DNA of 64,000 nucleotides from Thiomicrorhabdus aquaedulcis. Lineage in GTDB: Bacteria; Pseudomonadota; Gammaproteobacteria; Thiomicrospirales; Thiomicrospiraceae. The notes beneath the pieces were generated by a model, which saw only the letters and a list, made by a program, of their open reading frames with translations, had not been told where the DNA came from and made no database searches. A program made the position numbers and the translations under genes. This document shows positions 9,757 to 43,907 of the stretch, piece after piece (the stretch's first letter is position 1; the number at the start of each line of letters is the position of its first letter). The stretch spans positions 1,922,001 through 1,986,000 of the forward strand of contig NZ_AP018722.1 in assembly GCF_004001325.1 (NCBI RefSeq). Direction: 5' to 3'.

Positions 9757-11703
9757 TTAAACCTTTTTACCAGGCCTGGTCATTGTCATGTCGCGCTGAT
9801 TTATAACAATAAACTCGCTTAACGCCTCAGGGCAAATGGGTCGGCTAAACCAATACCCTTGCCCCACATCACACCCCAAGTCGGACAATACTTGACGTTG
9901 CTCATCGGTTTCAATCCCTTCAGCCACCACCGTCATAGACAAATCGTGCGCCAAATGAATCATGGCTTTTGCAATCGCAAATTGACGTTTATCGTCAATA
10001 ATATCAATTACAAACGCACGATCAATCTTTAAGGTATCAAACGGAAACAGCGTTAAATAGTGCAAAGATGAAAAACCGGTACCAAAATCGTCTAAAGCAA
10101 TTGAAAAACCCCTAGACTTTAACAACTCAATTTTTTCCAAACTGCGCTCTACATTATTAAGTAAAACACTTTCGGTCAGCTCAATTTGCACTCGGGCCAA
10201 ATCGACACCCAACCGCTCAAACTGCTCAATAGCCCGTTCACAAAAGACCTCATCCGCAAATTGGCGCGCCGAAACGTTAATAGAAAACTTAATATCAACA
10301 CCCAAAGCCTGCCATTTAGCAATATCCGCACCCGCTTGCGCCATTAAGGTTTCGCTTACCGCACCAATCAAACCCGTTTCTTCTGACACAGGAATAAACA
10401 CGCCCGGCGATGGCCCATGCGATCCATCGGGTAAAATCCAACGCGCCAACACTTCTGCGCCCACCATTTGACCACTCTTTAACTCAATCAATGGCTGATA
10501 ATACGGCTTAATACAGTCGGTTTTTAAGGCAGCGCGCAAGCGCGTTTGCATGTCCACCATTTCGGTGGCGTGTTCGGCCATTTCATGAGCAAAAAATGCC
10601 ATGCTTAAACCCTGGCTTTTGGCCTTAAACATAGCCGCATCGGCGTGCTGAATCAGCGCTTCGGGTGTAACGCCATCGCGTGGATACACCGCAATTCCAG
10701 CTGTCGCGCCTATGCTTAAACGATGCCCCTCAATTCTAAAAGGTGCTTCAAGTAACTGATTTATGCGCAACACACAACCTTGTAAAGCGGCGCTGCTAGT
10801 TGATTGCTGCGTTACCAACACAAACTCATCACCGCCAAAGCGCGCTATCATGGCTTGCTCTACCTCTAAACAACTGTGCTTAAAACGCCCCGCGACCTCT
10901 TGCAATAACGCATCGCCAATTGAGTGCCCATAAGCATCGTTGACATATTTAAACCGATCCAAATCAATAAACAGCACCGCAAATTCACCTGCATGCTCAC
11001 CATGAATGGTTAATTCGTCAAAATACGTGCTGTTTTGCGCAATTAATTTTTGCATATAATCGCTTAAATAACGTCGATTAGGCAAATCAGTAAGCGGATC
11101 AAACAAACCCAAGTGCTCTAACTGATGCTCGGCCAACTTACGCTCTGTAATGTCAATATTAATGGAGCGCACCCCAATAACATGCCCCGAAGGGTCTCTA
11201 ACCGTGCCGCACAAATGCTCAAGCCAGCGCACCTCGCCATCACGTTTAACCACTCTAAATTCAACTTTTTCAGGCGCGCCATCATCGTTCATGTGATGCG
11301 AATGACTTAACCAGGCCTGGCAATCGTCTTTGTAAATAATGGAATCCATAAAGCTTGGGGTTTGATAAAAATCTTCTGGCTGATAACCCGTAATAGACAA
11401 CACTGCGGGCGACACATACTGATACACACCCTCTACGGTGCGCAACGACACAAACTCTAATGAAAAGTCAGCCACCGCTTTAAACAAAAGTTTTTCGCGT
11501 TGATGCTGCTCATTACGCTCATAAATCCACCCCCAAGCTACACCCAAAAACACACTGGCAAACAGCGGTATTAACCAGCCAACTAACCCAGAATCAGACT
11601 GAATTACACTATTTTGAATGTACGCAAACGGCAAAATAAACACAAACGCCCAAAACACCGTTTTAACGTAACTTACGCGCGCCAATTTCTTAAACATTTT
11701 CAC
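9757..11703 (-). CDS. Membrane PAS-GGDEF-EAL c-di-GMP protein
   Basis: A 648-residue two-domain c-di-GMP enzyme. Two N-terminal membrane helices (about 14-30 and 40-58) are followed by a PAS/PAC domain (about 80-190, ending INIDITERKLAE), a GGDEF domain (about 200-375, intact ARFGGDEFVL) and an EAL domain (about 385-630). The EAL signature reads EVL, but the metal/catalytic stretch ALDDFGTGFSSLHYL and the closing EGIETDEQR are intact. It could act as cyclase, phosphodiesterase or both. No RxxD inhibitory site is seen before GGDEF. The gene contains two copies of the ACCAGGCCTGGT palindrome, one spanning codons close to its stop. Confidence 0.9.
   Translation of the reverse strand: MKMFKKLARVSYVKTVFWAFVFILPFAYIQNSVIQSDSGLVGWLIPLFASVFLGVAWGWIYERNEQHQREKLLFKAVADFSLEFVSLRTVEGVYQYVSPAVLSITGYQPEDFYQTPSFMDSIIYKDDCQAWLSHSHHMNDDGAPEKVEFRVVKRDGEVRWLEHLCGTVRDPSGHVIGVRSINIDITERKLAEHQLEHLGLFDPLTDLPNRRYLSDYMQKLIAQNSTYFDELTIHGEHAGEFAVLFIDLDRFKYVNDAYGHSIGDALLQEVAGRFKHSCLEVEQAMIARFGGDEFVLVTQQSTSSAALQGCVLRINQLLEAPFRIEGHRLSIGATAGIAVYPRDGVTPEALIQHADAAMFKAKSQGLSMAFFAHEMAEHATEMVDMQTRLRAALKTDCIKPYYQPLIELKSGQMVGAEVLARWILPDGSHGPSPGVFIPVSEETGLIGAVSETLMAQAGADIAKWQALGVDIKFSINVSARQFADEVFCERAIEQFERLGVDLARVQIELTESVLLNNVERSLEKIELLKSRGFSIALDDFGTGFSSLHYLTLFPFDTLKIDRAFVIDIIDDKRQFAIAKAMIHLAHDLSMTVVAEGIETDEQRQVLSDLGCDVGQGYWFSRPICPEALSEFIVINQRDMTMTRPGKKV
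9769..9780. repeat. ACCAGGCCTGGT palindrome, copy 5
   Basis: Exact, inside the last codons of the PAS-GGDEF-EAL gene, where it encodes TRPG in the divergent C-terminal tail. Confidence 0.9.
11310..11321. repeat. ACCAGGCCTGGC, one-mismatch copy of the palindrome
   Basis: 11 of 12 bases match, inside the PAS domain of the PAS-GGDEF-EAL gene. There it encodes CQAWL, a different frame from the copy at 9769. Confidence 0.7.
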
Positions 11704-11931
11704 TTAAAACAACAGCCTTTTTAAATTCATTAACTACGATTAATCCATGCAAAAAAGTCACAGACTAAAAATAAAATTTTGTAGAGTATTAGTTATATTT
11801 ATAGCAGAGTCAAAACAGCATTTTTTATTTGCCGATAAGTTTTAAACCTAGGTAATTATTCTGCCCACACACTTTGGCGGTCACTAACGAACCCATTATT
11901 CAAAATTAAGGCATTGTTTTGGTTTTTACAG

Positions 11932-11960
11932 TTGACAGGCTTAAAACAAGCCACTATAAT
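11932..11960 (+). promoter_or_regulatory. Sigma-70 promoter for tRNA-Leu and tRNA-Val
   Basis: Consensus -35 TTGACA (11932-11937) and -10 TATAAT (11955-11960) with a 17-bp spacer, 19 bases before the tRNA-Leu 5' end. It probably drives both tRNAs. Confidence 0.9.
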
Positions 11961-11979
11961 TCGCGACCACAACATGCAC

Positions 11980-12066
11980 GCCAGTGTGGTGAAATTGGTA
12001 GACACGCCGGATTCAAAATCCGGTGCCTTTAAAAGCGTGTCGGTTCGAGTCCGACCACTGGTACCA
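11980..12066 (+). tRNA. tRNA-Leu (anticodon CAA)
   Basis: An 87-nt class II tRNA. Acceptor arm GCCAGTG pairs with CACTGGT (one G-U), the anticodon loop TTCAAAA gives CAA, a long variable arm is present, the T-loop is GGTTCGAGTCC, and CCA is encoded. It reads UUG leucine codons. Confidence 0.95.
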
Positions 12067-12122
12067 TTAACTTATCGCAAGTTAATGTTTTTTGTTTTGC
12101 ACAAATCGTTTCACCTCTTTAT

Positions 12123-12199
12123 ACAACCGTAGCTCAGTTGGTTAGAGCACTACCTTGACATGGTAGGGGTCGGTGGTTCGAATCCACTCGGTTGTACCA
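12123..12199 (+). tRNA. tRNA-Val (anticodon GAC), integration target
   Basis: A 77-nt tRNA. Acceptor ACAACCG pairs with CGGTTGT, the anticodon loop TTGACAT gives GAC, the T-arm is GGTGGTTCGAATCCACT, and CCA is encoded. Its 3' 47 bases recur at 25477-25523, so this is the attachment site of the integrative element that begins immediately downstream. The gene itself remains complete. Confidence 0.95.
12153..12199 (+). repeat. attL: 47-bp core inside tRNA-Val
   Basis: The 3' part of tRNA-Val from CCTTGACATGG to the terminal CCA is repeated without mismatch at 25477-25523. The match stops at both ends, which defines the crossover region of a tyrosine recombinase. Confidence 0.92.
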
Positions 12200-12272
12200 A
12201 ATAAACGTTTAAAATCAGTAAGTTACAAAAAAATAAGCCACACATCCCTTCTCGATTCACACGCCAATTAAA

Positions 12273-12293
12273 AAAACTACACGAAAACTACAC
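12273..12293 (+). repeat. Putative integrase arm sites, tRNA-proximal end
   Basis: Two direct repeats of AAAACTACAC (12273-12282 and 12284-12293) with an 11-bp period, 74 bases inside the element. The same pair in the same orientation occurs inside the opposite end (25337-25357), which is the arrangement of arm-type binding sites. Confidence 0.65.
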
Positions 12294-12821
12294 GCTGACC
12301 AATAAACCACATTCGTTGATTTGTAACCAATGTTGCAACCAAACTCATGTCTTCTAGAAAATCTTAACTTATATAAAAAATAGAATTGATTTCAACTGCT
12401 TTCTAGACTGGGAGGAGGTTATAAAGATTAGTGCTGAAAGATGTCTATGACGCTCAACAGAGCTCCCATCAATGAACGTTGATGAGTTACTGCTAATAAA
12501 TAAAATTAATTGCCTCATAAAATAAAAATAATTCATTTATAAAATAAACTTAAGAAATTACTATTTTTTAAAACTAAAGCTTAATAAGATGCAATCAAGC
12601 AAATGAAAACCCGTCAAAATGACGGGCTAATTTTTCAAGCATTACAGTGCTTAAGAGATAAATGCTTCGCAAAGTACTGAGCCATTGTGAATTCGCATTT
12701 TTTTGAGATATGCGATTAATATTCTAAAAAATAAACGCTTGTTTAGCAATTTTTTAATTTTCACAATAAAGAGCTAAGTACCTTTTTAATTATTATTTTT
12801 ATTGTTAAAGGAAATTAAAAC
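12294..12821. other. AT-rich region without a convincing gene
   Basis: About 530 bases of AT-rich DNA between the arm repeats and the AlpA-like gene. I see a hairpin with T-tract at 12610-12636 and no open frame with a credible ribosome binding site. Left-end integrase or excisionase sites could lie here. Confidence 0.5.
12610..12636 (+). terminator. Hairpin terminator in the island left end
   Basis: CCCGTCA-AAA-TGACGGG stem-loop followed by CTAATTTTT. It may stop read-through from the tRNA operon into the island. Confidence 0.6.
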
Positions 12822-13124
12822 ATGATACAAAAAAACTTATTCGATATAGTATCTATGCAAGAAGAAGATTTAAAAACGCTAATAAGATTTGTTATTTCTG
12901 AAGTCGCAGCAAAAACACAACAAGAATTGACCGCTAAAAAATCTGAAGTTCTTCGGCCTAAACACGTGCAATGTTTGTTGGGGTGCTCTCGCTCGCATTT
13001 AGATCTGCTAAGTCAAAAAGATCCAAAATTTCCAAAAGTCATTCGGCTGGGCTCACGATGGACGGGCTATTTAAAATCGGATATAGATACTTACCTGAAA
13101 ACTCTGGGCTCAACCATTCATTAA
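12822..13124 (+). CDS. AlpA-like small DNA-binding protein (possible excisionase/regulator)
   Basis: A 100-residue protein. Residues about 48-95 (VQCLLGCSRSHLDLLSQ... FPKVIRLGSRWTGYLKSDIDTYL) match the MerR/AlpA-type winged helix pattern: a recognition-helix segment, then a G-x-R-W turn, then an acidic helix. AlpA-family proteins regulate integrase genes or act as excision factors in P4-like elements. The N-terminal 45 residues are amphipathic and unassigned. A clear Shine-Dalgarno (AAAGGAAA) precedes the ATG. Position near the tRNA end supports an element-maintenance role, but excision activity is inference. Confidence 0.65.
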   Translation: MIQKNLFDIVSMQEEDLKTLIRFVISEVAAKTQQELTAKKSEVLRPKHVQCLLGCSRSHLDLLSQKDPKFPKVIRLGSRWTGYLKSDIDTYLKTLGSTIH

Positions 13125-13264
13125 ATGTATCTTATATACAAGACGACGATCAAAATATTGACGCCGTCTTAAAACACTAACGCGCTTTGACCACCTTCAA
13201 TTTTTTAAACAAAACAGCCTTTTAATAAAAAATTAATTAAAGACACAAAACAAATAAATAATTA

Positions 13265-13423
13265 GAGACCTTTGCACGAGTCAATGCACGAATAAAAATG
13301 GTTAAAATTCACCTGATTTTTGTTGAAAAACTTGCGAATAGCTCGCTATTCACTGCGTTTTCCGCCGCAATCAGGCAAATTTTTCCTCATTTTTCTTTCG
13401 CACCTGACTCGTGCAAAGGTCTC
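13265..13423. mobile_element. 159-bp MITE with 18-bp terminal inverted repeats
   Basis: Perfect terminal inverted repeats GAGACCTTTGCACGAGTC at 13265-13282 and 13406-13423, flanked on both sides by AATTA (13260-13264 and 13424-13428), a likely 5-bp target duplication. It has no coding capacity. An internally deleted relative is at 43409-43487, a lone terminus at 23349-23366 and a short degenerate end near 43881. The parent transposase is not in the window. Confidence 0.8.
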
Positions 13424-13466
13424 AATTAATTAATTATATTATTTAATTTTTTAATTAATTTTTTAA

Positions 13467-13603
13467 TTAATTTCGCGACTTTAATTCTTTCAAAAACTCT
13501 ACGCCGCTACTAGCGAAATCACGAGCAATCACTTCCACAAAATGCTGTTAGGGATTTCAGAAAACTTATTTTCAAGCCCTTGTTGTAGTTGTTTAATATC
13601 CAT
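13467..13603 (-). pseudogene. Small hypothetical protein, about 45 aa, frameshifted
   Basis: From ATG at 13603 the frame reads MDIKQLQQGLENKFSEIPN and then breaks. One base later the same strand continues HFVEVIARDFASSGVEFLKE to a stop at 13467. Adding one base gives 45 residues. I do not recognise the family. It follows the polyvalent-protein fragment on the same strand and may be a relic of the same mobile gene cluster. Confidence 0.4.
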
Positions 13604-13680
13604 TTAGTGTCTTTATCCAGTTACTTACCAAGGTTAACGTTATGAGGAAGTCGCTATCTTTGTTAGGGATTGTTTGCTTA

Positions 13681-14093
13681 TCAGGAAGTGTCACGTTCCG
13701 GCGCGTGCAAAGCGTAAAGATACAGCCCCATAACCTCACTGGTAATGCTGTTTTTAGACATGCTTGTTATGGACTTTTCTACCTGGCGGCCAAAGTCTTG
13801 CACCTTAGAAGGTAAGATGGCTAAGAAGCGTTGAATACCGCTGTAAATGTCCGGCGCTTTGCCTTTGGTTTCTGTATCAAGCGCATCTTGCAACTGCTTA
13901 ACGCGCTCAAAGCGGTCGTACTCGTTTTTCTTAATCTCTTCTGCCTTAGTCCATTTAGCCAATAATTCATTAGCCTCTTGGTCAGTAGGCGCGGCAACTT
14001 CTTCTTGCGGGTCTTTACGGCTAAACACTAGGTTAGGTGAATCGGCTTGGTCTGGGTCGAATGCGGCGTTGATTGAGCGGATTTGGTTTGGCT
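13681..14093 (-). pseudogene. C-terminal fragment of a large polyvalent-type mobile-element protein
   Basis: An open frame without a start, ending at 13681. It contains INAAFDPDQADSPNLVFSRK near its beginning and EVMGLYLYALHAPERD at its end. Such segments are typical of the very large multidomain proteins carried by conjugative elements and phages, where the INAAFDP-like string links an upstream toxin/enzyme domain to downstream parts. The frame is cut at 14094 by the left end of the composite IS. It is a remnant and not expected to function. Confidence 0.5.
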
Positions 14094-14159
14094 TGTAATG
14101 GTCTAATAAACCTGTAGGGTTTCATAGCCTATAATTACCTCAACTATAGGATATGGATC

Positions 14160-14446
14160 ATGACCGATAACAGCAGAAAAGATCGCATTAATGTAACGCC
14201 CAAACAAAAACACGAATACGCCAGATTGATGGTGCAAGACAATTACACCAACAAACAAATTATGGAAATTTCCGGCGCGGCCGCCCCTGCAGTCACGCGT
14301 TGGAAAAAGCAATATCTCGCTGAACAACGCGGTGAAATGATCGAAGGCAAAATCCCCTTGGATGCCGATAAACGGCTCATACATGAGCTCAAACAAGAAC
14401 TCGCCGAGGCAAGAGAGGATATACGACTATTAAAAAGGCCACAGCC
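14160..14446 (+). pseudogene. IS3-family OrfA, truncated by IS insertion
   Basis: Residues 1-93 are a normal IS3 OrfA: a helix-turn-helix (VTPKQKHEYARLMVQDNYTN...) and a leucine-rich coiled coil ending EAREDIRLLK. At 14447 the terminus of another IS enters and the frame runs into foreign sequence, ending at 14492. The normal programmed frameshift site is lost. Confidence 0.75.
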
Positions 14447-14518
14447 TGGACTGGCTACAATCCTTCGTACACAAAGACACGTTAAAATGTGACTTAAAAA
14501 TACGAATAGGAATTGAAC

Positions 14519-15286
14519 ATGAAACATCAAAAACGCTATGACGACCAACTCAAACAGCAAGCCATTGAAATGGCGCTAGAAGGTTCAAAATCCGTGGCAC
14601 AAATCGCCCGAGATTTAGACATAAAAGACAACACTCTTTACGGTTGGGTTGATAAACATCGTCGTGATAATCCTGATAAAGCTTCAACTAAACTGGTTGT
14701 CGCAAAACGCCCCAAAAAACCGCACTATTATCCCGTGGGTAAAGAATTGCCAAACATTCCCAATCACCTAAATCGAGAATTTAATCCGCCTAATATCAAC
14801 ACCCACTGGGTCGGCGACATTACCTACATTCGTTCACATCAAGGATGGAGTTATTTGGCCACGGTGATGGACTTAGGCAATAAGGAGATCGTTGGCTATG
14901 AGATCTCAAAAACCCCCGATGCTCAGTTAGCCAAGCGCGCCTTAATCAATGCCATTGCCAAGCATCAACCGGATACAACGCAATTAATGTTTCACTCAGA
15001 TCAAGGGGTGCAATATACAGCCAATCTGTTTAAGGATTGTTTAGCGTTACACAAAATCACCCAAAGCATGAGTCGTCGCGGGAATTGTTGGGACGATGCG
15101 GTACAAGAGCGATTTTTTCGCAACCTAAAAACGGAGTACCTCAATGACTTGAGTTTTATAAATCATCAATCCGTTGTTGATGCGGTTGAAAAATACATTG
15201 GCTTTTACAACCATAAAAGACTCAACTCGGCGATTGATTATTTAACCCCAGTCCAAAAAAGACTGGAAATGCAAAAATTGGCTTAG
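14519..15286 (+). pseudogene. Chimeric transposase: OrfA of one IS fused to OrfB of another
   Basis: Residues 1-62 (MKHQKRYDDQ... STKLVVA) are nearly identical to the OrfA at 59890-60189. From KRPKKPHYYPVGKE on, it is an rve/DDE integrase domain with the acidic residues in GDITYI, FHSDQG and QERFFRNLK. The fusion is in frame, so a 255-residue hybrid could be made, with the DNA-binding domain of one IS and the catalytic core of another. The OrfB N-terminal domain is missing, so transposition is doubtful. Confidence 0.75.
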
Positions 15287-15330
15287 AAAGCCTACAGAAA
15301 TACTTGACCATTACACAGAGCAAGGCCGGT

Positions 15331-15675
15331 TCAATTTTTAGATGCCCTTTGACGCTTGTTCTTGATTTTCTTTTGTTGTAGCTCAAATCGTTCCTGAAGG
15401 CTAATCTCAGGCTCAACATACAAGCTAAGTAAATCTTTAACCATCAATAAGGGTATCATTACCTTTATCATATTTTCAGTAGAAACGGGTCTGCCTTGTT
15501 CCAGCCGTTTAATCGTTCCCACGCTCACGCCAGTATGAACAGACAATTCTTCTTGAGTGACATTCATGCTTAATCTTTTTGCTTGAATCACGTTGCCAAG
15601 CTGCTTAACAGCCTGTTCGATAGGCATGTTATTACCCGGTACATATCGACCACCTAGTTTGCTATTGGTATTCAT
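15331..15675 (-). CDS. hipB: HipB-like antitoxin/XRE regulator
   Basis: A 114-residue helix-turn-helix protein. The Cro/CI-type domain spans about 20-78 (KQLGNVIQAKRLSMNVTQEE... GVSVGTIKRLEQGR) and the C-terminus is basic (KKIKNKRQRASKN). HipB proteins bind the operator of their own operon and neutralise HipA. Its ATG overlaps the hipA stop by 4 bases, so the two are translationally coupled. Here hipB is downstream of hipA, opposite to the E. coli order. Confidence 0.8.
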   Translation of the reverse strand: MNTNSKLGGRYVPGNNMPIEQAVKQLGNVIQAKRLSMNVTQEELSVHTGVSVGTIKRLEQGRPVSTENMIKVMIPLLMVKDLLSLYVEPEISLQERFELQQKKIKNKRQRASKN

Positions 15676-16985
15676 AATCCGAACTCCATACCATTTGAAT
15701 CCGTCTCAGGTTGGCTATCCGATTCAGAGTCCAACTCAATTAACGCCTCGTTAATATGCTTTTCAATCGCCTCTTTCTTGGCTTGTTTTACATCAGCTTT
15801 ATAGGCAAAGACGCTCCATTGTTTTACGGCATCTTTAACCTGTTCAATAACGGTCAGTTTTTGAGTGTCGTCAAGCGACAGAGCCGCTGACTCTGCAAGT
15901 AAGTCACCCAAGTGAATATTCAAACCCTTGCCGTTAATAAGCAGGTTGTGCTCTCTTGTCCAAGCGTTTGGATTTCTCTCATTATAGGCATGAGTCACAT
16001 CATAAGCCGGAGCCAATGACCAACGACCTTCTTTTGAGAGAATGAATGAGAAGTTTTTAGTGTGATCGTCACGATTGACCGCTAGAACATTAAACACCAT
16101 TCGTCTAAAAGCTTCCTCCTGGTCAGATAACGGCAAGTCAAGATTAACAACGGATGCAAAATAATCACGATAGCTGCCTGATTGGAATTCATTGAAATCA
16201 ATGCCGGTTAAGGCGCATAAGGTTTGAACGTGAATCTTTTCATTATTAACACGATCAAAACGTTTAGTAACAAAATGTTTTCTATCTCCATCACCTAGTA
16301 AATAGCAATCCATCATGTCAACCTTGGCTTCTTTTGACATTAAAAAATAGGCGTATTCAATGTTTGAGTAGCCTTGCGGGTCACAGTCAATGCTATTAGC
16401 ATCTACACCATCAAATTTAATAAGGTAATGCTCAAATCCTTCGGGAACATCATATTGTCCAGAAATGATGTTCTTAAATCCTTTATCCGCTCCGATAAGT
16501 GCTTTTGGCCTTGCACCACCCGCTGATGAGCCAATGGAAATTAATTCACTTGATACTTTGCAGATATTTCCGTTTATGGCACTTCTTGCATCTTGAACAA
16601 GTTTATTAACTTGCAATGAAACTTGATAGTTACTTTTATAGGACTCTTGGGGCTCAAACTCTAAAGCACCAATGGCTTTTTTGCCAACATAAGAAAGGCG
16701 TTGAAGAGCATTAATACTTATAGCTGAAACCCCTTTTTTAGCATAATAAGAGTTAATGACCTGATTACCAAACCGGTCGGGCAAGGCATCGGAAATGAAT
16801 TCAGGAAGGCCTTTAAAGGTATTGTTAGAAACTCTGTTGCTATATCGTCCTTGTGATAACGGCATCAAAAACGGAGAGATTTCCAGCCCATTTCTTTGAT
16901 AAGAATAATCGTACTCAAAGACAATCTTTCCGTTATCTATCGCCAAGTACCCAACGGTTTCCCCATATAATTTAACAGACAACAT
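15672..16985 (-). CDS. hipA: HipA-like serine/threonine kinase toxin
   Basis: A 437-residue HipA-family kinase, full length. Visible are the N-subdomain (VKLYGETVGYLA... LPDRFGNQVINSYY), the Gly/Ser-rich nucleotide loop SIGSSAGGARPKALI near residue 150, the catalytic-loop motif VNRDDHTKNFSFI near 300, and the Mg-binding APAYDVTHAYN near 330. E. coli HipA phosphorylates glutamyl-tRNA synthetase and induces dormancy; this target is not known. It heads a two-gene operon with hipB in the island and would promote element retention. Confidence 0.85.
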   Translation of the reverse strand: MLSVKLYGETVGYLAIDNGKIVFEYDYSYQRNGLEISPFLMPLSQGRYSNRVSNNTFKGLPEFISDALPDRFGNQVINSYYAKKGVSAISINALQRLSYVGKKAIGALEFEPQESYKSNYQVSLQVNKLVQDARSAINGNICKVSSELISIGSSAGGARPKALIGADKGFKNIISGQYDVPEGFEHYLIKFDGVDANSIDCDPQGYSNIEYAYFLMSKEAKVDMMDCYLLGDGDRKHFVTKRFDRVNNEKIHVQTLCALTGIDFNEFQSGSYRDYFASVVNLDLPLSDQEEAFRRMVFNVLAVNRDDHTKNFSFILSKEGRWSLAPAYDVTHAYNERNPNAWTREHNLLINGKGLNIHLGDLLAESAALSLDDTQKLTVIEQVKDAVKQWSVFAYKADVKQAKKEAIEKHINEALIELDSESDSQPETDSNGMEFGL

Positions 16986-17332
16986 ATCAACCTCTAAAGC
17001 AAATATTAAATATTAATAGATAATATATTAGACTTTATTTAAGTATAGTCCAGCTAATTTGAGTCCAAAGCTGAAATGACTTGAGATGGGTGGTGTAGGT
17101 GTGATTGGGAGAGATTGAAAGCAATCTAATGTCGGACAGGCTGTTAACGTGTTTAAACACCTTTTCGGGTTAGGCGTGGATTGGGTAGATTAAAGCACTA
17201 AAACTAATTTCAATAAGGTGTATGGCGCTTACTCTGTCAATGTCGTATTCAATAGACCTTAATTAACTGGAGTGGTTACACTATTTCGTACCTAGATGAT
17301 GTTATAAAATCACCATCCAAAGGAGACCCGAA

Positions 17333-17620
17333 ATGGCCAATGCAAAATACGACCTTGAACTTAAAAAAGAAGTTATTGACGCCATCGTCAATGGTGGAAG
17401 AAGTTCAGCTCAAGCCGCAAGAGATTATGAGTTACCCGTTACCGTTGTTTACACTTGGGTTCGTGCACATAAACTTAAAAATGATTTGGCTGTGATTCCA
17501 AAACTCTCGGAATCTCTAGAACAAGAAAATAAACGGCTTAAAAAAGAACTCGCTCAAGCCAAAATGGAGCGAGACATCTTAAAAAAAGCCACCGCATACT
17601 TCGCCAGTCTCGAGAAATAA
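17333..17620 (+). CDS. IS3-family OrfA
   Basis: A 95-residue helix-turn-helix protein (ELKKEVIDAIVNGGRSSAQAARDY... VVYTWVRAHK) with a leucine-zipper-like coiled coil in the C-terminal half (LEQENKRLKKELAQAKMERD). It binds the IS ends. A -1 frameshift on the A7 run near its end produces the OrfAB transposase. Confidence 0.9.
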   Translation: MANAKYDLELKKEVIDAIVNGGRSSAQAARDYELPVTVVYTWVRAHKLKNDLAVIPKLSESLEQENKRLKKELAQAKMERDILKKATAYFASLEK

Positions 17621-17667
17621 AGTATGCGTGGATACAAAAGCATCGAGAAGAATTCCCGCTTGTACTG

Positions 17668-18525
17668 ATGTGTAAGGTATTAAACGTGCCCGTCAGCAGC
17701 TTTAATAGCTGGCTAAAATTAGACCCCACAGATAAGGCAGCCGAACAAAAAGAGAATACTGATTTGGTTAAAGAGACCTTCGGCATCTTAAAAGGAAATG
17801 CAGGAGCAAGAGGCATAAAAGGTTATTTAACCAACGAAAAGAAAGTGACGATGAGTCGGCGTAAGATTGCTCGAATCATGCGAGAACAAGGCCTAATCGT
17901 CCACACTCGTAAGAAGTTTAAGAAAGCCAGCAGTGCGGCCATTAATGACCCAAAAATACAGCCAAACTTACTCAAACGGGAGTTTAAAGTCAGCTACCTC
18001 AACCAAGTATGGGTCGGTGACATAACGCAAGTTAAAACCCAGCAAGGCTGGATGTACTTGGCCACCTACATTGACCTCTACTCAAGAAAAGTAGTCGGAT
18101 GGGCATTGGAATCGCATATGCGCTCAGAGCTCATCGAAACCGCATTAAAAAGAGCACTGTGGAATCGTAAACCACCAAAAGGACTGATGGTTCACACGGA
18201 CCAAGGCAGTCAATTTATCAGTAATGCTTACCGCAAGCTGATTGCCCATTGGGGCATTAAGCAAAGCATGAGTCGTCGCGGAAATTGTTGGGATAATGCC
18301 GTTATTGAAAGCTTCTTTAAGTCTTTCAAAACAGAAACCGTTTATCAGCTTACAAAATTAATCGACCAACAAGAAATGCGTTGGCTGGTTTCGGAATATA
18401 TGGGGCACTACAACCACATCAGGCCACACAGCTCGAACGGTTATATTGCGCCTGCAAAGTTCGAGCAAATAAGGCTAGACCGACTAAAAGAAATTGAAGA
18501 AAATCTAGGTACGAAAAAGTGTTGA
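17668..18525 (+). CDS. IS3-family OrfB transposase
   Basis: A 285-residue frame from the ATG. The frame continues upstream (KYAWIQKHREEFPLVLMCKV) to the slippage site, so the natural product is an OrfAB fusion. It has an HTH_21 domain followed by the rve catalytic domain, with DDE residues in VWVGDITQVK, VHTDQGSQF and ESFFKSFKTE. Complete and probably active. Confidence 0.9.
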   Translation: MCKVLNVPVSSFNSWLKLDPTDKAAEQKENTDLVKETFGILKGNAGARGIKGYLTNEKKVTMSRRKIARIMREQGLIVHTRKKFKKASSAAINDPKIQPNLLKREFKVSYLNQVWVGDITQVKTQQGWMYLATYIDLYSRKVVGWALESHMRSELIETALKRALWNRKPPKGLMVHTDQGSQFISNAYRKLIAHWGIKQSMSRRGNCWDNAVIESFFKSFKTETVYQLTKLIDQQEMRWLVSEYMGHYNHIRPHSSNGYIAPAKFEQIRLDRLKEIEENLGTKKC

Positions 18526-18532
18526 CACTCCA

Positions 18533-19120
18533 GTGTTGCTCAGTACCGGCTAAGGTGAAACTTCCTTGCATCGTACTTGCGTCCACAAATTCGCGTTCTA
18601 ATCCTAGTGCGCTTGCAAGGCTAAGTAAAAACTCCGTCTTGCCAATTCCAGGCTCTCCAACGATCAGCACGGGGGTAATGTGCAATGGCTTCTGGCCGTG
18701 CTGACAGACCCGCAAGCTAGTCGCGACAATATCGACTACCGGCGTAAAATTTGGGAATTTCTTTGAAAGTGCTTTTACACGCGACACTAAGTCATCGTCA
18801 ACGATACGCTCGTCTTTCATAAGGGAATGGTCTAAATACGACTTTAAAAGCTTTGCAATGTGCGTGAGATAAGGCTTATCTCTTTTTAAACGTGCGTCAA
18901 GCATGACCTCTTCGGCTTTCAATACTAAGCTCGGGGCAATGCTGATCATCTGTCGCTTAGTGTGTGTCGATGTCTCAAGTGTACTGACCATTACATCTTC
19001 CATTTTTGAGGCAAGCTCAATGTCATCTTCTTCGTCTTCAATGTTTTCAAAAAGGGCATCGTGACTTTCATGTTCCATTCGACTATGTAATTTTCGTATC
19101 CGCTTCTTTAAATCATTCAT
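18533..19120 (-). pseudogene. AAA+ ATPase, truncated by the adjacent IS
   Basis: The first 196 residues of an ATPase. A charged, helical N-terminal region (about 1-140) precedes a Walker A motif (VGEPGIGKTEFL near residue 165) and then ALGLEREFVDASTMQGSFTL. At GTEQH the frame meets the IS terminus at 18532, so Walker B and all later motifs are missing. The pattern resembles Lon/MoxR-like AAA+ proteins. It is divergent from the HsdS-like gene across a 180-bp region, so both may have belonged to one module. Presumed non-functional. Confidence 0.65.
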
Positions 19121-19303
19121 AAACCTTCTCCCAGATCAATATTGACTATCCCGACTTATAAAACTATTTTTAATTTAGTTTTTATACGACTTCACAATAG
19201 CAAACTTTCTCAAGAATGAAAAGTATTTTTTTTTACGTGTTTTAAACATCTTCTGCTACAATCTTTTTAAACCTTAAACTTATGACTAAAAGGCCATTTA
19301 TTG

Positions 19304-20005
19304 ATGCACATAGACTTTCTGCTGTTTAAAGAGCACAAAATGTTAGTTGAACCCGTTCCTGAATCCTTTCATGGCAGCACCACCCTGGGTGAGATTTGCG
19401 ACATTTCCGCTGGACTGTCTTTGGGCAAAGTTGAGAGCGTCCCGTTTCAACCGAATACCAGTCAAGACTCAATACAGTTAATTCGCCCTCAAGACCTGGC
19501 TCATAGCAATTCGTTGGAGGCTAAGCAGCTAGAAAGCCTTGATACGATTGTTCTGACCGATGAGATTTCTGATCGCTTGCAAGCCCACCACTTTGTGATG
19601 GTAGGTGACATCATAATTTCTGCACGCGGCACGCTCTACCATGCAGCTTTAGTCAAGTCACTTCCCGATGAGGCCAATATTATTCTGTTGAACAACATGA
19701 TCTGCTTGAGACCGAGGATAAGGCTTCCCGAGGTAATATTGCTTTACCTGAACTCCGCTTGGTTTAAAGAGCACGTGATTGAAAAGGACTTTCCCAAGAT
19801 GCTGTCGCTCACCGTAAAATGGTTAAGAGCACAAAAATTTATTTTGCCTACACTGGAAAAGCGTCAAATGATGGTCGATTTAATCGCGCACCAACAAAGT
19901 CATAAGAGTGCGCTTGAGAAGATGATGAAGGCCTCACAAGATCTGGTGGAAGGGGTTTTATTTGAAGCGATGCGGGAAGCCAGTCCACAAGAGGAAGATA
20001 ATTGA
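19304..20005 (+). CDS. HsdS-like specificity protein with a single target-recognition domain
   Basis: About 233 residues. LGEICDISAGLSLGK at the start, GDIIISARGTLYHAAL in the middle and LPTLEKRQMMVDLIAHQQSHK before the C-terminal helix match one TRD plus one coiled coil of a type I specificity subunit. Normal HsdS has two such halves, so this is a half-subunit that could dimerise. I take the ATG at 19304; a TTG lies just before it. Its stop overlaps the start of the HsdM-like gene by one base, so the two are coupled. No HsdR is present. Confidence 0.7.
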   Translation: MHIDFLLFKEHKMLVEPVPESFHGSTTLGEICDISAGLSLGKVESVPFQPNTSQDSIQLIRPQDLAHSNSLEAKQLESLDTIVLTDEISDRLQAHHFVMVGDIIISARGTLYHAALVKSLPDEANIILLNNMICLRPRIRLPEVILLYLNSAWFKEHVIEKDFPKMLSLTVKWLRAQKFILPTLEKRQMMVDLIAHQQSHKSALEKMMKASQDLVEGVLFEAMREASPQEEDN

Positions 20006-21575
20006 TGCATTTTATTTCTAGAAATGACCAGCTACTCGACCCGGTTGAAACCGAGTTTAATAAAATACTCAATACATTAGAAGACTCCGCATACCGCGAA
20101 AATGAACTCGATAAAGTGATTGGGGTTTGCATAAACCCTCGCGAAGATGAAAGACATGCCGCCCTTTTTTCGCGCACCGTAGCAAAACTTGGCTTTGAGG
20201 ACTTAGCGACCAACCTCAGCGTTTTTTTAAGCCTGGTTATTGCGTATCAAGATAGCTCACCTTTTATGACTCCAAGCAGACGCCCTTTCTCAAATTGGCC
20301 GGATAGTCCTCTTGCAATGGTGTTTTTAGAACACTATCAAAAGAATCATTGGCCTATACCTCTCCATCAAGCGGCTTTGGATGACTCAACTGAAGTACAC
20401 AAAAATATAAAATTGAGTCCTGAAGAGGTGCTGAAATCGTGGAATAGCGTGGAGACTTTAATTGACGCGCTGAATTTTATTCAAAGAGAGTACCAACCAG
20501 AAAACAATTGGCGACTTAAGCTGGCGGATGACATCAGACATTTTTTGGATAAAAAGGCGCGTGCTTTTGAGTGGTATGGCTTTAACCAAGACATACTGCA
20601 GATGATTGCGCACATTCTTGAAGTGGCTGATGTGAACAATCAGTCAGTGATTCAAGATGGTTGCGCGGGTTTGGGTCTACTGAGCTTACAATTACCGTTG
20701 CATAATGATACACATCCTGAACTTAGACTTGAAACAACCACCCCGATTTTTCAACAAATTACAATGCAAATGGCTCAAATTCAAGCGTTAAACCGTATCG
20801 TGCACTGCCATACTAACAACCCGCTTTCCACGACAGAATTAAAATTCACAGCAAAACAAGCGGATGTAATTCTAAGCTTTCCTAAGATGCCTTATGTACT
20901 GAGCCGGGTTGAAAGAAGCATTGAGCAACCTTTTTTAAAGATTAGACGCTATGAAATCTTACCAGGGTACGCCAGTGACGCTCTCTGGGTTCAATATGCA
21001 TGGCATCATCTAAAAGATGGAGGCATTGCTTTTTGGCCGTGCAAGAAGGGTTTTTACGTCGCGGTGGGTACGACCAAAGTGTGCGTAAGTATTTAATCGA
21101 CCGCAGCGCGGTTAAATTGGTTATTACGCTTAACGCAAATCAGGCGCGTCAATCACAATACAACCAAGTTTACTTGCTGATGCTGGTCAAAAATAGTGCG
21201 CGCGGTCACGTTAATAATGACTCACTTTTTGACAACGAGGGTGTCATGTTTATAGACTTTCGTGAAATTCAACGACTTTACGATAGAAAGGGTACGAGCT
21301 TACTCAATCTCACCACGCTGCCCTTCTGGGATGATGAAAAATACAAGCAAATGACTGACCATTTCAATCTGGGAAGTGTTCGTATTTTTAAGTCTAATCA
21401 TGAGATAGTTATGAACAATTGCAATTTATTGATTGGAAATTATCAAGATAAACCTGGCCAAAATGACTTTCCAAACCTAGCACAGGCAACGTTGTATTAC
21501 GATGAATCGGCCAAGCACTTAGAGCAGTGCTTTGAAGAGTTTAATGCGGTACTTAAAAAGTTTAAAATTATCTAA
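20005..21575 (+). CDS. HsdM-like methylase with degenerate catalytic motif (one-base frameshift)
   Basis: About 523 residues after adding one base at the T5 run 21030-21034, which changes GGIAFWPCKK into GIAFLAVQEGFLRRGGYDQS and restores the second half. A helical N-terminal domain is followed by a Rossmann methylase fold. The SAM-binding motif I reads QDGCAGLGLLS (near 215). The position of the N6-adenine motif NPP[YF] reads LSFPKMPY (near 292), so Asn and the second Pro are lost. It resembles the HsdM C-terminal half (DALWVQYAWHHLKDGG, YLIDRSAVKLVITL). SAM binding is possible; methylation is unlikely. Follows an HsdS-like gene. Confidence 0.65.
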
Positions 21576-21600
21576 CAAAGGCACGTCACCGTTGAATAGA

Positions 21601-22191
21601 CTATAAATCATCCCCCGTTAGAATCAGCCTTGCTAGGATGGGGCAACGATTGATACCCCTTGAAATGTCATTGAAACGCTTTGACATTCACCCAGCTCTG
21701 CCATCATGCGTACGTGACTGCGAAATCGTAGCACGCTCCATAATATCATCACAGCCAGCTAATTTCTGTCTGGGCTTACGGGCACAGATAACATTGCCTT
21801 CACTTTATTTTACAAGTTGCTGTAATAACAACCCGGCCGGTTCAAATCGCAGTGATTTAAACTCTATTTTCAAATCAAAACGGAGCATGGCAGTAGAATT
21901 GATATTATCCATCAAATTATTTGAGGCGATAAACACCCCTTCGTAACTTTCCATTTGAATTAACAATTCATTCACTTGAGTCACCTCCCAGCTGCTCTGC
22001 GCTTTCTCTCGACTTGGCAAGAAAATATCGACTTGATTGAGCGACAATTATCTTGGCCGATTGATCTGATAAATTTCAGTACAGCAAAACGGAGAGTTTG
22101 CTGTACCGGGAATAAAAACCTCAAATCGATTTGCAATTTAATGGACTTCCAATTAATGAATTGATTGGGTTTGTCTAACTCAGCAATGGCT
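21601..22191 (-). pseudogene. Decayed AAA+ ATPase C-terminal region
   Basis: Minus-strand remains of a second AAA+ ATPase. The piece at 21805-22047 reads SSWEVTQVNELLIQMESYEG and VFIASNNLMDNINSTAM, the Walker B-to-sensor 1 region of SpoVK-like ATPases, followed by LRFDLKIEF at the arginine-finger region. Walker B is altered (NQVD for DEVD). Downstream, another frame reads ILARLILTGDDL, resembling the LARL-LTPGD ending of the family. Upstream to about 22190 an open frame without a start is present. Several frame changes mark it as a relic. Confidence 0.55.
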
Positions 22192-22461
22192 TCTTGCTGA
22201 TGAATGCAGGCATCGGCAAGAGAGGTTTAAGTTAGGTTTTCCAGGCCATTTTAATGCTCCATTTTTCATGGAATGCTTATTAAAAGTTAACATCTTTTCG
22301 CATCAGAATATTTTGAGTTTTTCAAAGGGTTCTCTTGCAAAGTCTTCTCATTAAAAACAAAAGGTAAAGAAAGTATTTCATATTAATGATTTATTTAGAT
22401 AATCAATTTATTACTTAAATAACTAAACCAGCATACTCATATATAAAATAGGATAATCTAA
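22192..22461. other. AT-rich spacer before the MobA-like gene
   Basis: No gene seen. As the region just upstream of a relaxase gene it is where an origin of transfer would be expected, but I see no hairpin or nick-site sequence that I can name. Confidence 0.3.
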
Positions 22462-23327
22462 ATGAAAAATGTTTTTTTAAAATAATTAAAGGCAAGCGCT
22501 TAAATGACTTATCATCAACAGAGAAAAAAAACGCTAAATGTAAAAGTTCGAGCATAAGTTCACTTGAACCCTTGCACTTAATGAATTATCTTTTGCGTAC
22601 AAAAGAATCTAAAACGAATAAGAATGATTTAATTGAATATGAAATACTAAACTTACCGATTTGGAGTTCTGACTATCAAGAATTCTGGTGCCAATGTTTT
22701 GAAAGTGAAAGAAAAAATAGCGTTTTGTACAGACACATCATTATTCCTCTTCCAACTGGAATTTCGTTAGAAAAAATAAAACCGGCGGTTTATGGCTTTG
22801 TACACTACATGTCAAATAAACACTTTAACTCTAAAATACCGCTTATGTGGGCCTTGCACTCCGGCGTAAAGCAAGATTATAAACACATTCATATCCTGCT
22901 ACACGACCGACCCATTGACACAAAATTAAATAAAGAAGAACACTTCACTACAAAAAATCCAAAAGTGAAGGGTATAAACGCACTAAGCTCTTCCTTTCTA
23001 GATGAAATAAAACAATGCTGGATCAATTTCATCAACCCCTTACTAGCCGATTCAGACAAATTCCAACTTCAAAGTAAAGCGAAGAAATACTCAACAGATC
23101 CGGTAGAAATACGCACCTCCTCAAACTTCGTCAATTATTCACAACCAAGCCTTGAGCAAACTAATTATAAAAACTCATATGAGTTTATGATGAGTGATGA
23201 ATTTAAACTGTCGTTTTTAAATGGAATTAGAATTAATTTTGACGCAATATTAAGGGATGGACTTAACATTTCACATAATACAAAACAAACACAAGAACTA
23301 GAAAACTCTAACAGCATACGTCACTAA
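22462..23327 (+). CDS. MobA/MobL-like relaxase protein (putative frameshift near start)
   Basis: The clean frame from 22572 gives 251 residues. Adding one base to the T7 run at 22472-22478 extends it to an ATG at 22462 (MKNVFFKIIKGKRLNDLSS) with AGGA upstream, giving about 288 residues. Key segments are YRHIIIPLPTGISLEKIK and WALHSGVKQDYKHIHILLHD, which match the MobA/MobL pattern in which paired histidines bind the metal of an HUH relaxase. The usual N-terminal catalytic tyrosine context is not obvious. It could nick an oriT for mobilisation of the island. Family assignment is by motif only. Confidence 0.5.
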
Positions 23328-23348
23328 ATTGACTTTATAAAATGTTAT

Positions 23349-23366
23349 GAGACCTTTGCACGAGTC
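23349..23366 (+). repeat. Lone MITE terminus
   Basis: GAGACCTTTGCACGAGTC, identical to the ends of the MITE at 13265-13423, but without the body or a second end. The antitoxin stop codon falls inside or at the edge of this sequence, so its 3' end appears to have been trimmed by the element. Confidence 0.75.
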
Positions 23367-23664
23367 AAGTTAATGAGCGCTGTGGCTGTAATCGAAACTC
23401 TAACCCGAGCGCAGTAATGACCTTGTAAACGGTTTCGAATCGAGGGTGCTTGCCTTCACCGAATGATTTGTAAAGGCTTTCTCGCCCTAGCCCGGTTCGC
23501 TTGCTAATTTCGCTCATACCCTTAGAGCGTGCCACCACGCCAAGCGCATAAATGAAAAACTCCGGATCATTTTCTTCTAAGCAGGCCTCAAGATAACCGA
23601 TTACATCCTCCGCCGTATTGAGGTAATCCGCCGAATCATAGGCTACAGATTCAAGTTTTTTCAT
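23365..23664 (-). CDS. Antitoxin of a RelE/HigB-like module (HTH)
   Basis: A 99-residue protein of the 'addiction module antidote' type: ADYLNTAEDVIGYLEACLEE at the N-terminus, then a Cro-like HTH (GVVARSKGMSEISKRTGLG, ESLYKSFGEGKHPRFETV) and a short strand ALGLEFRLQP. It would bind the toxin and repress the operon. It overlaps the toxin stop by 14 bases. The last codons coincide with a lone MITE terminus, so the original C-terminus may have been slightly longer. Confidence 0.85.
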   Translation of the reverse strand: MKKLESVAYDSADYLNTAEDVIGYLEACLEENDPEFFIYALGVVARSKGMSEISKRTGLGRESLYKSFGEGKHPRFETVYKVITALGLEFRLQPQRSLT

Positions 23665-23959
23665 TTAACCAGCTCCTTACTGTTTGAATGTCTTCAGCTT
23701 GTTTGGGCTTGTCACCCACCAGCATCAGTAAAATAATTTGACCATTCTCATGGGTATAGTAAACGCGCCAGCCCTTACCTACATCAATCCGCAATTCATA
23801 AAGCTGGGCATCAAGTTGTTTATAATCGCCCGGATTGCCTTGAGCTAAGCGGTCTATCCGCATAATGATTCTTGCTTTGGCGCGGTCGTCTTTAATCTGC
23901 TGAAAGCGTTCATCAAAGGGAGTCTTGCCGTTACGTTGGTATTTATTGATTTTCTTCAT
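23651..23959 (-). CDS. RelE/ParE superfamily toxin (HigB-like)
   Basis: About 102 residues from the ATG at 23959 (a TTG at 23974 would add five). The sequence has FDERFQQIKDDRAKARIIMR, LAQGNPGDYKQLDAQLYELR, GWRVYYTHENGQIILLML and GDKPKQAEDIQTVRSWL, the pattern of the HigB/YoeB-like 'addiction module killer' family. Members are usually ribosome-dependent mRNA endonucleases. Toxin precedes antitoxin, as is usual for this subgroup. It stabilises the island. Confidence 0.87.
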   Translation of the reverse strand: MKKINKYQRNGKTPFDERFQQIKDDRAKARIIMRIDRLAQGNPGDYKQLDAQLYELRIDVGKGWRVYYTHENGQIILLMLVGDKPKQAEDIQTVRSWLNEKT

Positions 23960-23994
23960 CGCTATTGTATCCAATTTTATACAGCAAAGCCTGG

Positions 23995-25320
23995 CTATTT
24001 TATCTGTTGTCTCGGTTGGCTAATGATCACATCAAATGCTTGTAGCGCACCTTTAGCGCGGTCAGGAACAAGATGACCATAATGCTTTTCAATCATCTTT
24101 GTAGACTTGTGGCCGGCCATGCGCGCCACTTGAAGCAGGTTCTCGGTTTGAAGCAAGGTGCTAATCCAGTGGTGGCGTAATGAATAGAAGTCTAAATCAT
24201 CCGGCAGACTTGCGAATGCGCGAATCTTTTCCCAATGAGTGATGTGCGCGTGTTTGTCATAAGCTTTACCAGTAATGTCAGATGGAAATACTAAGGCGGT
24301 GACCGGTGATTTGCCTTGTTGCTGATGCCATTGAGTCATTAGCTCGATAATTGAGTCGGGTAAATCCAGCGTAACTATAATCGGATCCGCGTGATGCCGT
24401 GTTTTGTTGGGCGTGAAACTCAAGCGTTTAAAGTTGAGGTTCAGGTTTTGCCATGTCAAAGATTTGATGTCGCCGGTGCGCATACCTGTGTAATACGCCA
24501 AATAAGTGAACGGAATTGACCAGTGCGCAAAGCGTTTATCGGCAAGTGGCTCAAGATAAGTGCGGCCACGCTGAATAGAATGCACTCTTTGGCGCTTTAG
24601 GTCAGTATTATAGGCTTCAATACCATCAAATAATTGTGTAAGTTCTGCTTTGGTGAGAAGTCGGCGTTTACTTTGGCTGTCGAGTTGTTTATCAACTTCT
24701 TCATAGTGTGGGCGCTCCAAGGGTGATTTGGCTGGCAGCGGATTGGTCTCAAGAATACCTTCCTCAATCGCCTTGTTGAGCAATGTCTTTAGTGCACCAT
24801 AAGCACGTTGAATGGTGGAGAAGGCGATTTCTTGCTCACGTTGTAGTTGCCATAACTTAATGTCAGTCGCTTTAATGCTTGCCATGTCTTTTTCAAGCAG
24901 GTGTGCAAAGTTATTGCGGATCATATTAAGTGTTTCGTGACCGGAACGCTTGCGAGCTTGGTGCTTGGCGTAAAGACCATCAAGATAATTACCAAGGGTG
25001 CGTTGACTGGCGCGCTGCTGCTGTTCAAAGAAATTTTTCTTCTTATCAGCCGCTTCGCGTAAAGGATCTGCGTCAGTTGCTATAATTTTTAAGGCTTTCT
25101 CTGCCGCTTGCTGAGGTTTCAGATGAGTTGATTTAGCAATAACTTTATTTCTAACCTTGCCACTAATATCAGTGTAACGAAGGCGGTAACTTACACAGTT
25201 GGGATTCCGGTAGAGATGAAAGCCCGAAATCATTTCACATTGAAGCCGCTCTTTAGGCCTCGAGCTATTTTCAAATTGAGCAAGCTTAGCCAGTGTTATG
25301 CTGGTTACCTTTTGAGCCAT
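23995..25320 (-). CDS. int: Tyrosine recombinase/integrase of the island
   Basis: A 441-residue site-specific recombinase. An N-terminal arm-binding region precedes a SAM-like core-binding domain (about 105-200: TLGNYLDGLYAKHQARK... TLLNKAIEEGILETNPL) and the catalytic domain (about 220-430). Catalytic residues are visible in YTGMRTGDIKSLTW (Arg), YSLRHHWISTLL (His/Arg), MAGHKSTKMIEKHYGH (His and the Tyr nucleophile). It starts 156 bp inside attR, close to paired repeats that look like its arm sites. It is the enzyme expected to have inserted the element into tRNA-Val. Confidence 0.93.
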   Translation of the reverse strand: MAQKVTSITLAKLAQFENSSRPKERLQCEMISGFHLYRNPNCVSYRLRYTDISGKVRNKVIAKSTHLKPQQAAEKALKIIATDADPLREAADKKKNFFEQQQRASQRTLGNYLDGLYAKHQARKRSGHETLNMIRNNFAHLLEKDMASIKATDIKLWQLQREQEIAFSTIQRAYGALKTLLNKAIEEGILETNPLPAKSPLERPHYEEVDKQLDSQSKRRLLTKAELTQLFDGIEAYNTDLKRQRVHSIQRGRTYLEPLADKRFAHWSIPFTYLAYYTGMRTGDIKSLTWQNLNLNFKRLSFTPNKTRHHADPIIVTLDLPDSIIELMTQWHQQQGKSPVTALVFPSDITGKAYDKHAHITHWEKIRAFASLPDDLDFYSLRHHWISTLLQTENLLQVARMAGHKSTKMIEKHYGHLVPDRAKGALQAFDVIISQPRQQIK

Positions 25321-25336
25321 CGCGACCTTCCTTCTA

Positions 25337-25357
25337 AAAACTACACAAAAACTACAC
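25337..25357 (+). repeat. Putative integrase arm sites, integrase end
   Basis: AAAACTACAC at 25337-25346 and 25348-25357, an 11-bp period, identical to the pair at 12273-12293. They lie in the promoter region of the integrase, 120 bases inside attR. Confidence 0.65.
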
Positions 25358-25476
25358 AGTAACCGAAGTATAACACGTTAAAACTAGTGAAAGCTAAGGA
25401 ATCAATAATACATTAACTCTATGATAAACATGATATTTTATATGTAAGCATCTGTTTTAACACGCTTCTTATAATG

Positions 25477-25523
25477 CCTTGACATGGTAGGGGTCGGTGG
25501 TTCGAATCCACTCGGTTGTACCA
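25477..25523 (+). repeat. attR: 47-bp tRNA-Val 3' end duplicate
   Basis: Perfect copy of 12153-12199, starting CCTTGACATGG and ending with CCA. It lacks the 5' half of a tRNA, so it is not a gene but the far boundary of the element. Confidence 0.92.
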
Positions 25524-25592
25524 GTTTTTATCCATATTTTTCAATAAGTTACAAAGTCCTTATCTCCTGTTAAATTTCTTAGATCTACTCTC

Positions 25593-25621
25593 TGTGCCCA
25601 TCCTGTGCCCTCTTTGTGCCC
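25593..25621 (+). repeat. Three TGTGCCC repeats with 11-bp period
   Basis: TGTGCCC at 25593, 25604 and 25615, 70 bases beyond attR. The distance from the core and the 11-bp period mimic the arm sites of the resident island at its left end, suggesting the left end of a different, older element. Confidence 0.5.
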
Positions 25622-25669
25622 AACACTTTTTCTTGCCAAAACTATCGCTCTATAATTTTGACCACTACC

Positions 25670-26278: not shown

Positions 26279-26288
26279 CAATGCCAAA

Positions 26289-27131: not shown

Positions 27132-27246
27132 GTGGATTCCTTGTGGGGTTAATTGGCCTTAATGGCACGGGGGTTCGTAATTTGTACTAATTGATACACA
27201 CGGCTTTTTAAAACGTAACAACATAGCCACGCAGCAACGCAATCAT

Positions 27247-43408: not shown

Positions 43409-43487
43409 AGCCATTTGCACGCGTGAGACGCGAAAGAAACATGAGGTAAAATTTACCTGATTAAGGCGACTACTTGTGCAAAGGCTT
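43409..43487. mobile_element. Short MITE relative, internally deleted
   Basis: Ends AAGCCATTTGCACGCGTG and, reversed, AAAGCCTTTGCACAAGTA. The inside shares GCGAAAGAAA-ATGAGG-AAAATTT-CCTGATT with the reverse strand of the 159-bp MITE at 13265. About half the length of that element, and its outermost bases differ (AAGCC for GAGACC). Confidence 0.65.
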
Positions 43488-43880: not shown

Positions 43881-43907
43881 AACCTTTGCACAAGTGAAGT
43901 GCGAAGA
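43881..43907. repeat. Degenerate MITE end fragment
   Basis: ACCTTTGCACAAGTGAAGTG then CGAAG resembles the first 27 bases of the reversed 159-bp MITE (ACCTTTGCACGAGTCAGGTG then CGAAA). Short, so only suggestive. Confidence 0.4.

Follow-up and report, generated by a model that had tools for sequence, protein, structure and literature searches.

The window, that is, the whole 64-kb stretch of DNA analysed here (64,000 nucleotides), spans C1:1922001-1986000 of the Thiomicrorhabdus aquaedulcis genome (G000; 2,537,035 bases in 2 contigs). At window positions 13265..13423 it carries a full-length MITE copy of 159 bp, an unstranded feature consisting of one fold-back hairpin. Its terminal inverted repeats are 19 bp each, at 13265..13283 (+ strand) on the left and 13405..13423 (- strand) on the right, and lie between two copies of AATTA, the 5-bp target duplication, at 13260..13264 and 13424..13428 (also unstranded). 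The original prediction described an element with perfect inverted ends of 18 bp between AATTA flanks. The ends are indeed perfectly inverted and AATTA is present on both sides; the repeat here is 19 bp rather than 18, and it is the whole element, not its ends only, that folds back. The right-hand AATTA is the start of a AATTAATTAATTA run, so that the duplication of this copy is by itself weak evidence, and it is the family-wide duplications that make the case strong.

In the ORF list of the window, no open reading frame of at least 60 aa lies within the 159-bp element. No Rfam family matched the element at gathering thresholds, searches of plasmid and phage collections gave no BLAST match at E 0.001, and the exact two-end pattern was without match in viral contigs. 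A twin with identical sequence and different flanks is present elsewhere in the same genome (G000:C1:2169463-2169621).

The exact 18-bp end occurs three times in the 64-kb window, at 13265 (+), 13406 (-) and 23349 (+), compared with a mean of 0.03 in shuffles. Two of the three relatives predicted in the window were borne out: an internally deleted, decayed copy at 43409..43487 (- strand; profile match 43410-43472, E 2.4e-12), and a lone end at 23349..23371 (+ strand), exact over 18 bp with a profile E of only 0.024, from which the remainder of the element is missing. The third, a weak end predicted near 43881, corresponds to a possible decayed mini-copy or lone end at 43882..43906 (unstranded; weak, E 0.024). 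The window also holds a 5' fossil of an IS5-family insertion sequence (IS) with the same type of end (22128..22347, - strand), in which a decayed end lies near 22347 and transposase residues 4-41 are readable at 22241-22128 (63% identity over 38 residues). Two IS3-like transposase gene sets (14160-15286 and 17333-18525; seen as ORFs only, family assigned by eye) lie near the MITE in an island-like stretch.

Copies, insertion sites and distribution

Genome-wide, the end with up to three mismatches was matched 94 times in forward and 91 times in reverse orientation, a total of 185 matches, with 0 for a reversed-pattern control; matches with three mismatches may include a few chance ones, although the control was 0. 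Of these matches, 53 are lone ends; the others form 66 pairs, of which 45 span exactly 159 bp, and the family has about 120 traces in all. All of them are on C1 and none on C2. About 7 would be expected on C2 (about 97 kb) by length alone; the matches are paired, which makes this absence suggestive only.

With the window copy as a BLAST query, 136 candidates were obtained, and all 40 that were scored align over positions 1-159 with 86-100% identity. The 45 copies of 159 bp have a median nearest identity of 96.9% and terminal inverted repeats with a median of 17 bp (range, 2-36). Two pairs of fully identical copies occur at different sites, one pair including the window copy; some copies in this genome are therefore young. 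Shorter two-ended copies measure 28, 33, 41, 42, and 48 bp and 77, 85, 86, and 108 bp. Duplications flank several of them, such as the 28-bp copy at 2046479 (TAAAA) and the 41-bp copy at 1441889 (ATTTA). Under a loose rule, a decayed second end was found near 12 of the 53 lone ends. Internal deletion, proposed as the way in which copies differ, thus occurs, but as a minority feature, given that 45 of the 66 pairs are 159 bp. Longer copies of 178-186 bp (G000:C1:307705-307883, 2356170-2356347, 2434050-2434228, 1639290-1639475, and 1332359-1332542) hold short internal additions, some palindromic; three have much the same addition, AGTACCCCTTGAGGGTA or its complement. One pair, 2266 bp at 1163337-1165602, was considered as a possible IS; it has no duplication, is probably not an element, and was excluded from the context and duplication counts below.

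Gene context was assigned to the other 65 pairs from crude ORF calls (non-overlapping ORFs of at least 80 aa). Thirty-two pairs lie between tandem, 11 between divergent and 9 between convergent genes, 10 within predicted ORFs, and 3 at stretch edges were unclassed. Insertions are thus mostly intergenic (55 of 65 outside predicted ORFs; by the same method 13% of the window is intergenic) and show no preference for convergent gene ends. Of the 10 ORFs that hold pairs, seven have 81-135 aa and are possibly spurious, and three have 211, 265, and 314 aa.

Flanks were taken from 110 stretches around all end matches. Among the 56 pairs of 157-186 bp in this genome, 32 have flanks whose longest exact match is 5 bp; it is 4 bp for 11 pairs, 3 bp for 7, and less for the remaining 6, whereas re-dealing the flanks gave chance means of 1.14, 1.72, and 4.55 for 5, 4, and 3 bp, respectively. 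Copies in congeners (genomes presumed to be of Thiomicrorhabdus) behave similarly: of 79 (80 best BLAST matches, so that their fixed length is partly by choice, minus L306 at a contig edge), 40 have an exact 5-bp duplication (chance mean, 1.73) and 5 a 4-bp duplication (2.35), while 25 share one flanking base or none. The duplicated sites are AT-rich. The genome-wide collection of ends with their 5-bp flanks, recommended in the original prediction, has therefore yielded duplications at many sites, and the possibility raised there that other copies would lack them is not what these 56 pairs present.

Across genomes, a 17-bp end with up to two mismatches is present in 60 of 142, the T. aquaedulcis genome included. 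The richest congener is G016 (217 forward plus 220 reverse matches), with G012 (94 + 90) and G004 (51 + 50) also rich; six nearly complete congeners (G003, G014, G018, G019, G026, and G031) have 0 matches. Carriers outside the family include G137 (20 + 17), G131 (6 + 5), and G093 (2 + 3). Among 19 genomes picked from other genera for having end matches, 13 match the 159-bp element itself at E 0.001, with a best identity of 94%. Among the matches listed, MITE copies mostly have 75-88% identity to the T. aquaedulcis copy used as query; for the genes adjoining two tested copies, DNA identity between congeners is about 66-75%.

Orthologous sites of these two copies were examined by locating the flanking genes and searching both strands. 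At the first (L072), the element lies between the flanking genes in 0 of the 21 congeneric loci that hold both genes; in L195, L200, and L215 it occurs further out, beyond a gene. At the second (L046), it lies between the genes in 1 of 27 congeneric loci, that of G016, where it has a different distance from the genes, the opposite orientation, and other flanks. Neither insertion is shared among congeners, and at these two sites the concern that the element might occupy the same place in distant relatives did not materialise. Support for the predicted 159-bp MITE with a family of relatives comes from the copy number, the common ends, the many duplicated sites, and the sites not being shared. 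In a tree of 86 copies, most of those from T. aquaedulcis fall into three groups (with weak backbone support); one group adjoins all nine G016 copies used and another contains G030 and G021 copies. This grouping suggests several lineages that are older than, or have crossed between, species, with bursts within species.

A candidate parental insertion sequence

The search for an IS with the same ends, suggested in the original prediction, succeeded: intact copies exist in other genomes, and fossils remain in this one. A PF01609 search of 30 relatives gave matches in 13 of them, and 30 loci were scanned for MITE ends. Two congeners contain such ISs, of 1,254 bp (G029) and 1,244 bp (G007), with transposases of 328 or 326 aa that score 262 and 260 bits to NF033581 (transpos_IS5_4) and also match PF01609 and PF05598. 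The NF033581 cut-off is 140, and these scores place the ISs in the IS5 family. Transposase matches occur in 5 of 31 congeners (G007, G013, G017, G019, and G029); they are intact with these ends only in G007 and G029, those of G013 and G017 being fragments, and two G013 matches (32-33%) and the G019 matches being distant relatives.

A scan of genome contigs for this transposase gave 43 loci, some repeating the G007 and G029 loci, in records of Thiomicrorhabdus, Thiomicrospira, Cycloclasticus, Nitrincola, Endonucleobacter, Methylophilaceae, Methylococcaceae, Thiomargarita, Marinomonas, and others. Of the 43, 41 have a GAGACCTTTGCA-type left end (at most 2 mismatches in 12), which precedes the beginning of the protein match by 69-131 bp; of the two exceptions, one begins at a contig edge. 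The right end was found in 19 of the 22 loci searched on that side, and 17 loci have both. An exact 5-bp duplication flanks seven of the 17 (L154, L156, L157, L158, L159, L167, and L191, several from the same genome), which in L191 is AATTA; the other 10, including the intact copies of the G007 and G029 ISs, lack one. These ISs of about 1.25 kb have the outer 15-16 bp and, in part, the duplication size in common with the MITE. By eye, similarity ends after those 15-16 bp, and the interior of the MITE does not appear to derive from the IS.

In the T. aquaedulcis genome, PF01609 had 0 matches, and a search with the IS protein for an intact parental transposase gave only two 5' fossils. One is that in the window. 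The other, at 762275-762454, has 82% identity over 60 residues, and its end at 762559 shares 16 identical bp with that of the MITE. Within 300 bp of the latter (L041; G000:C1:762275 and below) lies sequence that by eye resembles parts of an IS3-type transposase, and the fossil may have been broken by another insertion. G016, the genome richest in ends, likewise has no match to the IS5 transposase. Its own DDE_Tnp_1 ISs were rejected as a source, as none of the 21 loci searched (of 22) has a transposase between a pair of these ends, a result that rests on the end search, with the automatic boundary search having worked for one IS type only. In three of these loci a MITE-sized pair lies beside the IS, and in two a lone end.

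We consider it highly likely that the family is a 159-160-bp non-autonomous fold-back MITE moved by an IS5-family transposase. Its ends, duplications, copy number, and unshared sites, together with the fossils and the ISs that have the same ends and duplication size, are direct observations; that this particular IS lineage moved the element is our inference, and judged from the sequences the mobiliser was very probably of IS5 type. A transposase of the NCBIfam transpos_IS5_4 type would recognise ends reading GAGACCTTTGCACGAG... and move the element into AT-rich, mostly intergenic sites, where a staggered cut of 5 bp (sometimes 4 bp) would leave the flanking duplication. With the IS of this genome reduced to two 5' fossils, copies would stay immobile until a further IS of this kind enters the genome. 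Once inserted, the long palindrome would decay, losing its middle to leave two-ended remnants of 28-108 bp or a single end. Against this explanation stand the lack of an intact transposase in T. aquaedulcis although some copies are young, and the lack of a match in G016, where none of the 21 DDE_Tnp_1 loci searched offers a substitute. The 10 two-ended IS loci without an exact 5-bp duplication and the restriction of MITE-IS identity to the outer 15-16 bp also count against it.

The end-rich genomes G016, G012, and G004 without a match to the IS5 query (G012 and G004 are incomplete, 93 and 92%) could also mean that another, unseen transposase, with ends that read GAGACCTTTGCACGAG by chance, moved the element and that the likeness to IS5 is coincidental. 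We regard such a coincidence as improbable in view of the 15-16 bp of identity, the duplication size that some IS copies share with the MITE, the IS fossils in the T. aquaedulcis genome, and the presence of IS and MITE together in G007 and G029.

The fold and its possible meaning

The full-length fold has a free energy of -65.3 kcal/mol; the average for 200 shuffles is -29.5 (z -10). Two-sided changes were examined in 86 distinct of 92 159-mers (43 from T. aquaedulcis, 43 congeneric), a set from which 25 copies were dropped for being 160 bp long and 7 for having other lengths, and which never included T. aquaedulcis copies of other lengths. RNAalifold predicted only 26 pairs, in the interior, and left the invariant ends unpaired, so pairs were taken from the consensus fold, which has 62 pairs and in which 90.8% of cells pair. 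Two-sided changes were observed in 25 pairs and 160 cells, compared with means of 14.1 and 59.8 (highest, 19 and 76) in shuffles that ignore relatedness, for a structure drawn from the consensus of the same sequences. In slid versions, pairing was 38-51% and two-sided changes reached no more than 17 pairs and 84 cells. Within the reach of these controls, the fold is preserved beyond column make-up, whether by selection, copying between arms, or partly shared descent. One copy, at 1274375, differs from a relative at 2378327 by nine differences at positions 18-29, and each of the nine brings its left arm into line with the right, so that the two are perfectly complementary over 36 bp. Arm-to-arm copying is the likely cause; the mechanism of this apparent rewriting, like that of the deletions, is inferred.

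Host use has been proposed for some REP and Correia elements, and a hairpin of this stability with two-sided changes above those of shuffles, a length and interior kept across species, and a largely intergenic location would fit a repeat spread or kept for service to the host, as a bidirectional terminator, an RNA-processing hairpin, or a chromosome-structure site. The gene contexts of the 65 pairs are not terminator-like and gave no sign of such a role, two tested sites are unshared between species, six nearly complete congeners have no end match, and the duplications show transposition, so that a host-serving origin has, in our judgement, little chance of being right. Spread of an ordinary repeat by recombination or duplication, at which the closeness of some copies (e.g., 909403 and 912071) might hint, is almost certainly not the explanation and is already contradicted by unrelated flanks with their own 5-bp duplications.

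Returning to the IS5-mobilised MITE, we suggest tentatively, as a possibility that we hold to be doubtful, a genus-wide fold-back element of near-fixed length without an enzyme of its own, with a fold kept up either by arm copying or by selection, acting on transposition or on RNA folding. Such an element would be amplified in bursts whenever an IS5-type element passes through the genome, the IS afterwards being lost. The burst-then-loss part of this suggestion comes from the many-copy genomes (G016, G012, G004, and T. aquaedulcis) without an intact IS.

ERIC elements likewise form a long hairpin, and their target duplication is TA, compared with the 5-bp, AT-rich duplication here. By analogy, ERIC may be regarded as a fair parallel in copy number, setting, and form. 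In PMC10969869, ERIC and Correia elements appear as short, mostly intergenic MITEs, each spread over numerous species of its group; copy number differs widely, ERIC ranging from 30 to 711 copies per genome. They have other sequences and ends, and here a candidate parent IS has been identified. The same text describes QMITE2 of Coxiella burnetii, of which there are 78 copies, ten of them full length, with truncated ones that resemble palindromic repeats; it is a different family, of about 190 bp, and a target for IS1111 (PMC10969869). According to PMC4596501, BrickBuilt of Porphyromonas gingivalis and ATR of Neisseria meningitidis (with ISNme1) are MITEs with IS5-family GAGACCTTTGCA ends, 19 copies each, for which an IS5-family parent was proposed from the ends, with no transposase; BrickBuilt is also intergenic. 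BrickBuilt contains 23-nt tandem repeats (PMC4596501), in contrast to one full-length hairpin with a usual length of 159-160 bp, and 66 two-ended places, here. MITEs of Thiomargarita, considered as a possible match, are described with 10-bp repeats or TATAG ends (PMC4853749) and do not resemble the present family. In a literature search by title and start of abstract, with subscription papers mostly outside it, no description of this MITE family was recognised.

The family is thus a large, tidy, and abundant case of known mobile DNA, an IS5-type MITE widespread in its bacterial family and orphaned here. For Thiomicrorhabdus and its relatives, it adds an ERIC-like repeat family for which there is a candidate parent lineage and which has many copies of different ages. 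A natural contrast exists among genomes in which more than 400 end matches and no IS were found, those that have an IS, and those lacking any end match, making this a good system for how MITEs outlive their transposase and whether the hairpin is under selection. For annotators, it gives an identity to many small intergenic repeats of these genomes.

Besides the MITE, a second repeat was observed. The palindrome ACCAGGCCTGGT has 718 exact occurrences in the 2.54-Mb genome (reversed control, 0), and its density is 0.315 per kb in stretches of this genome compared with 0.049 in congeneric loci. The window contains 16 exact occurrences, at 829, 3871, 7352, 8542, 9769, 27815, 31487, 34521, 35433, 40716, 41966, 49977, 50174, 52916, 57952, and 58852, and 18 with at most one mismatch, where 0.08 would be expected; it is missing from 11322-27814, the island-like stretch. 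The wider consensus is about TNACCAGGCCTGGTNA (92 sites, from stretches of which two overlap the window and were counted twice). It resembles a HIP1-like or uptake-type highly iterated motif.
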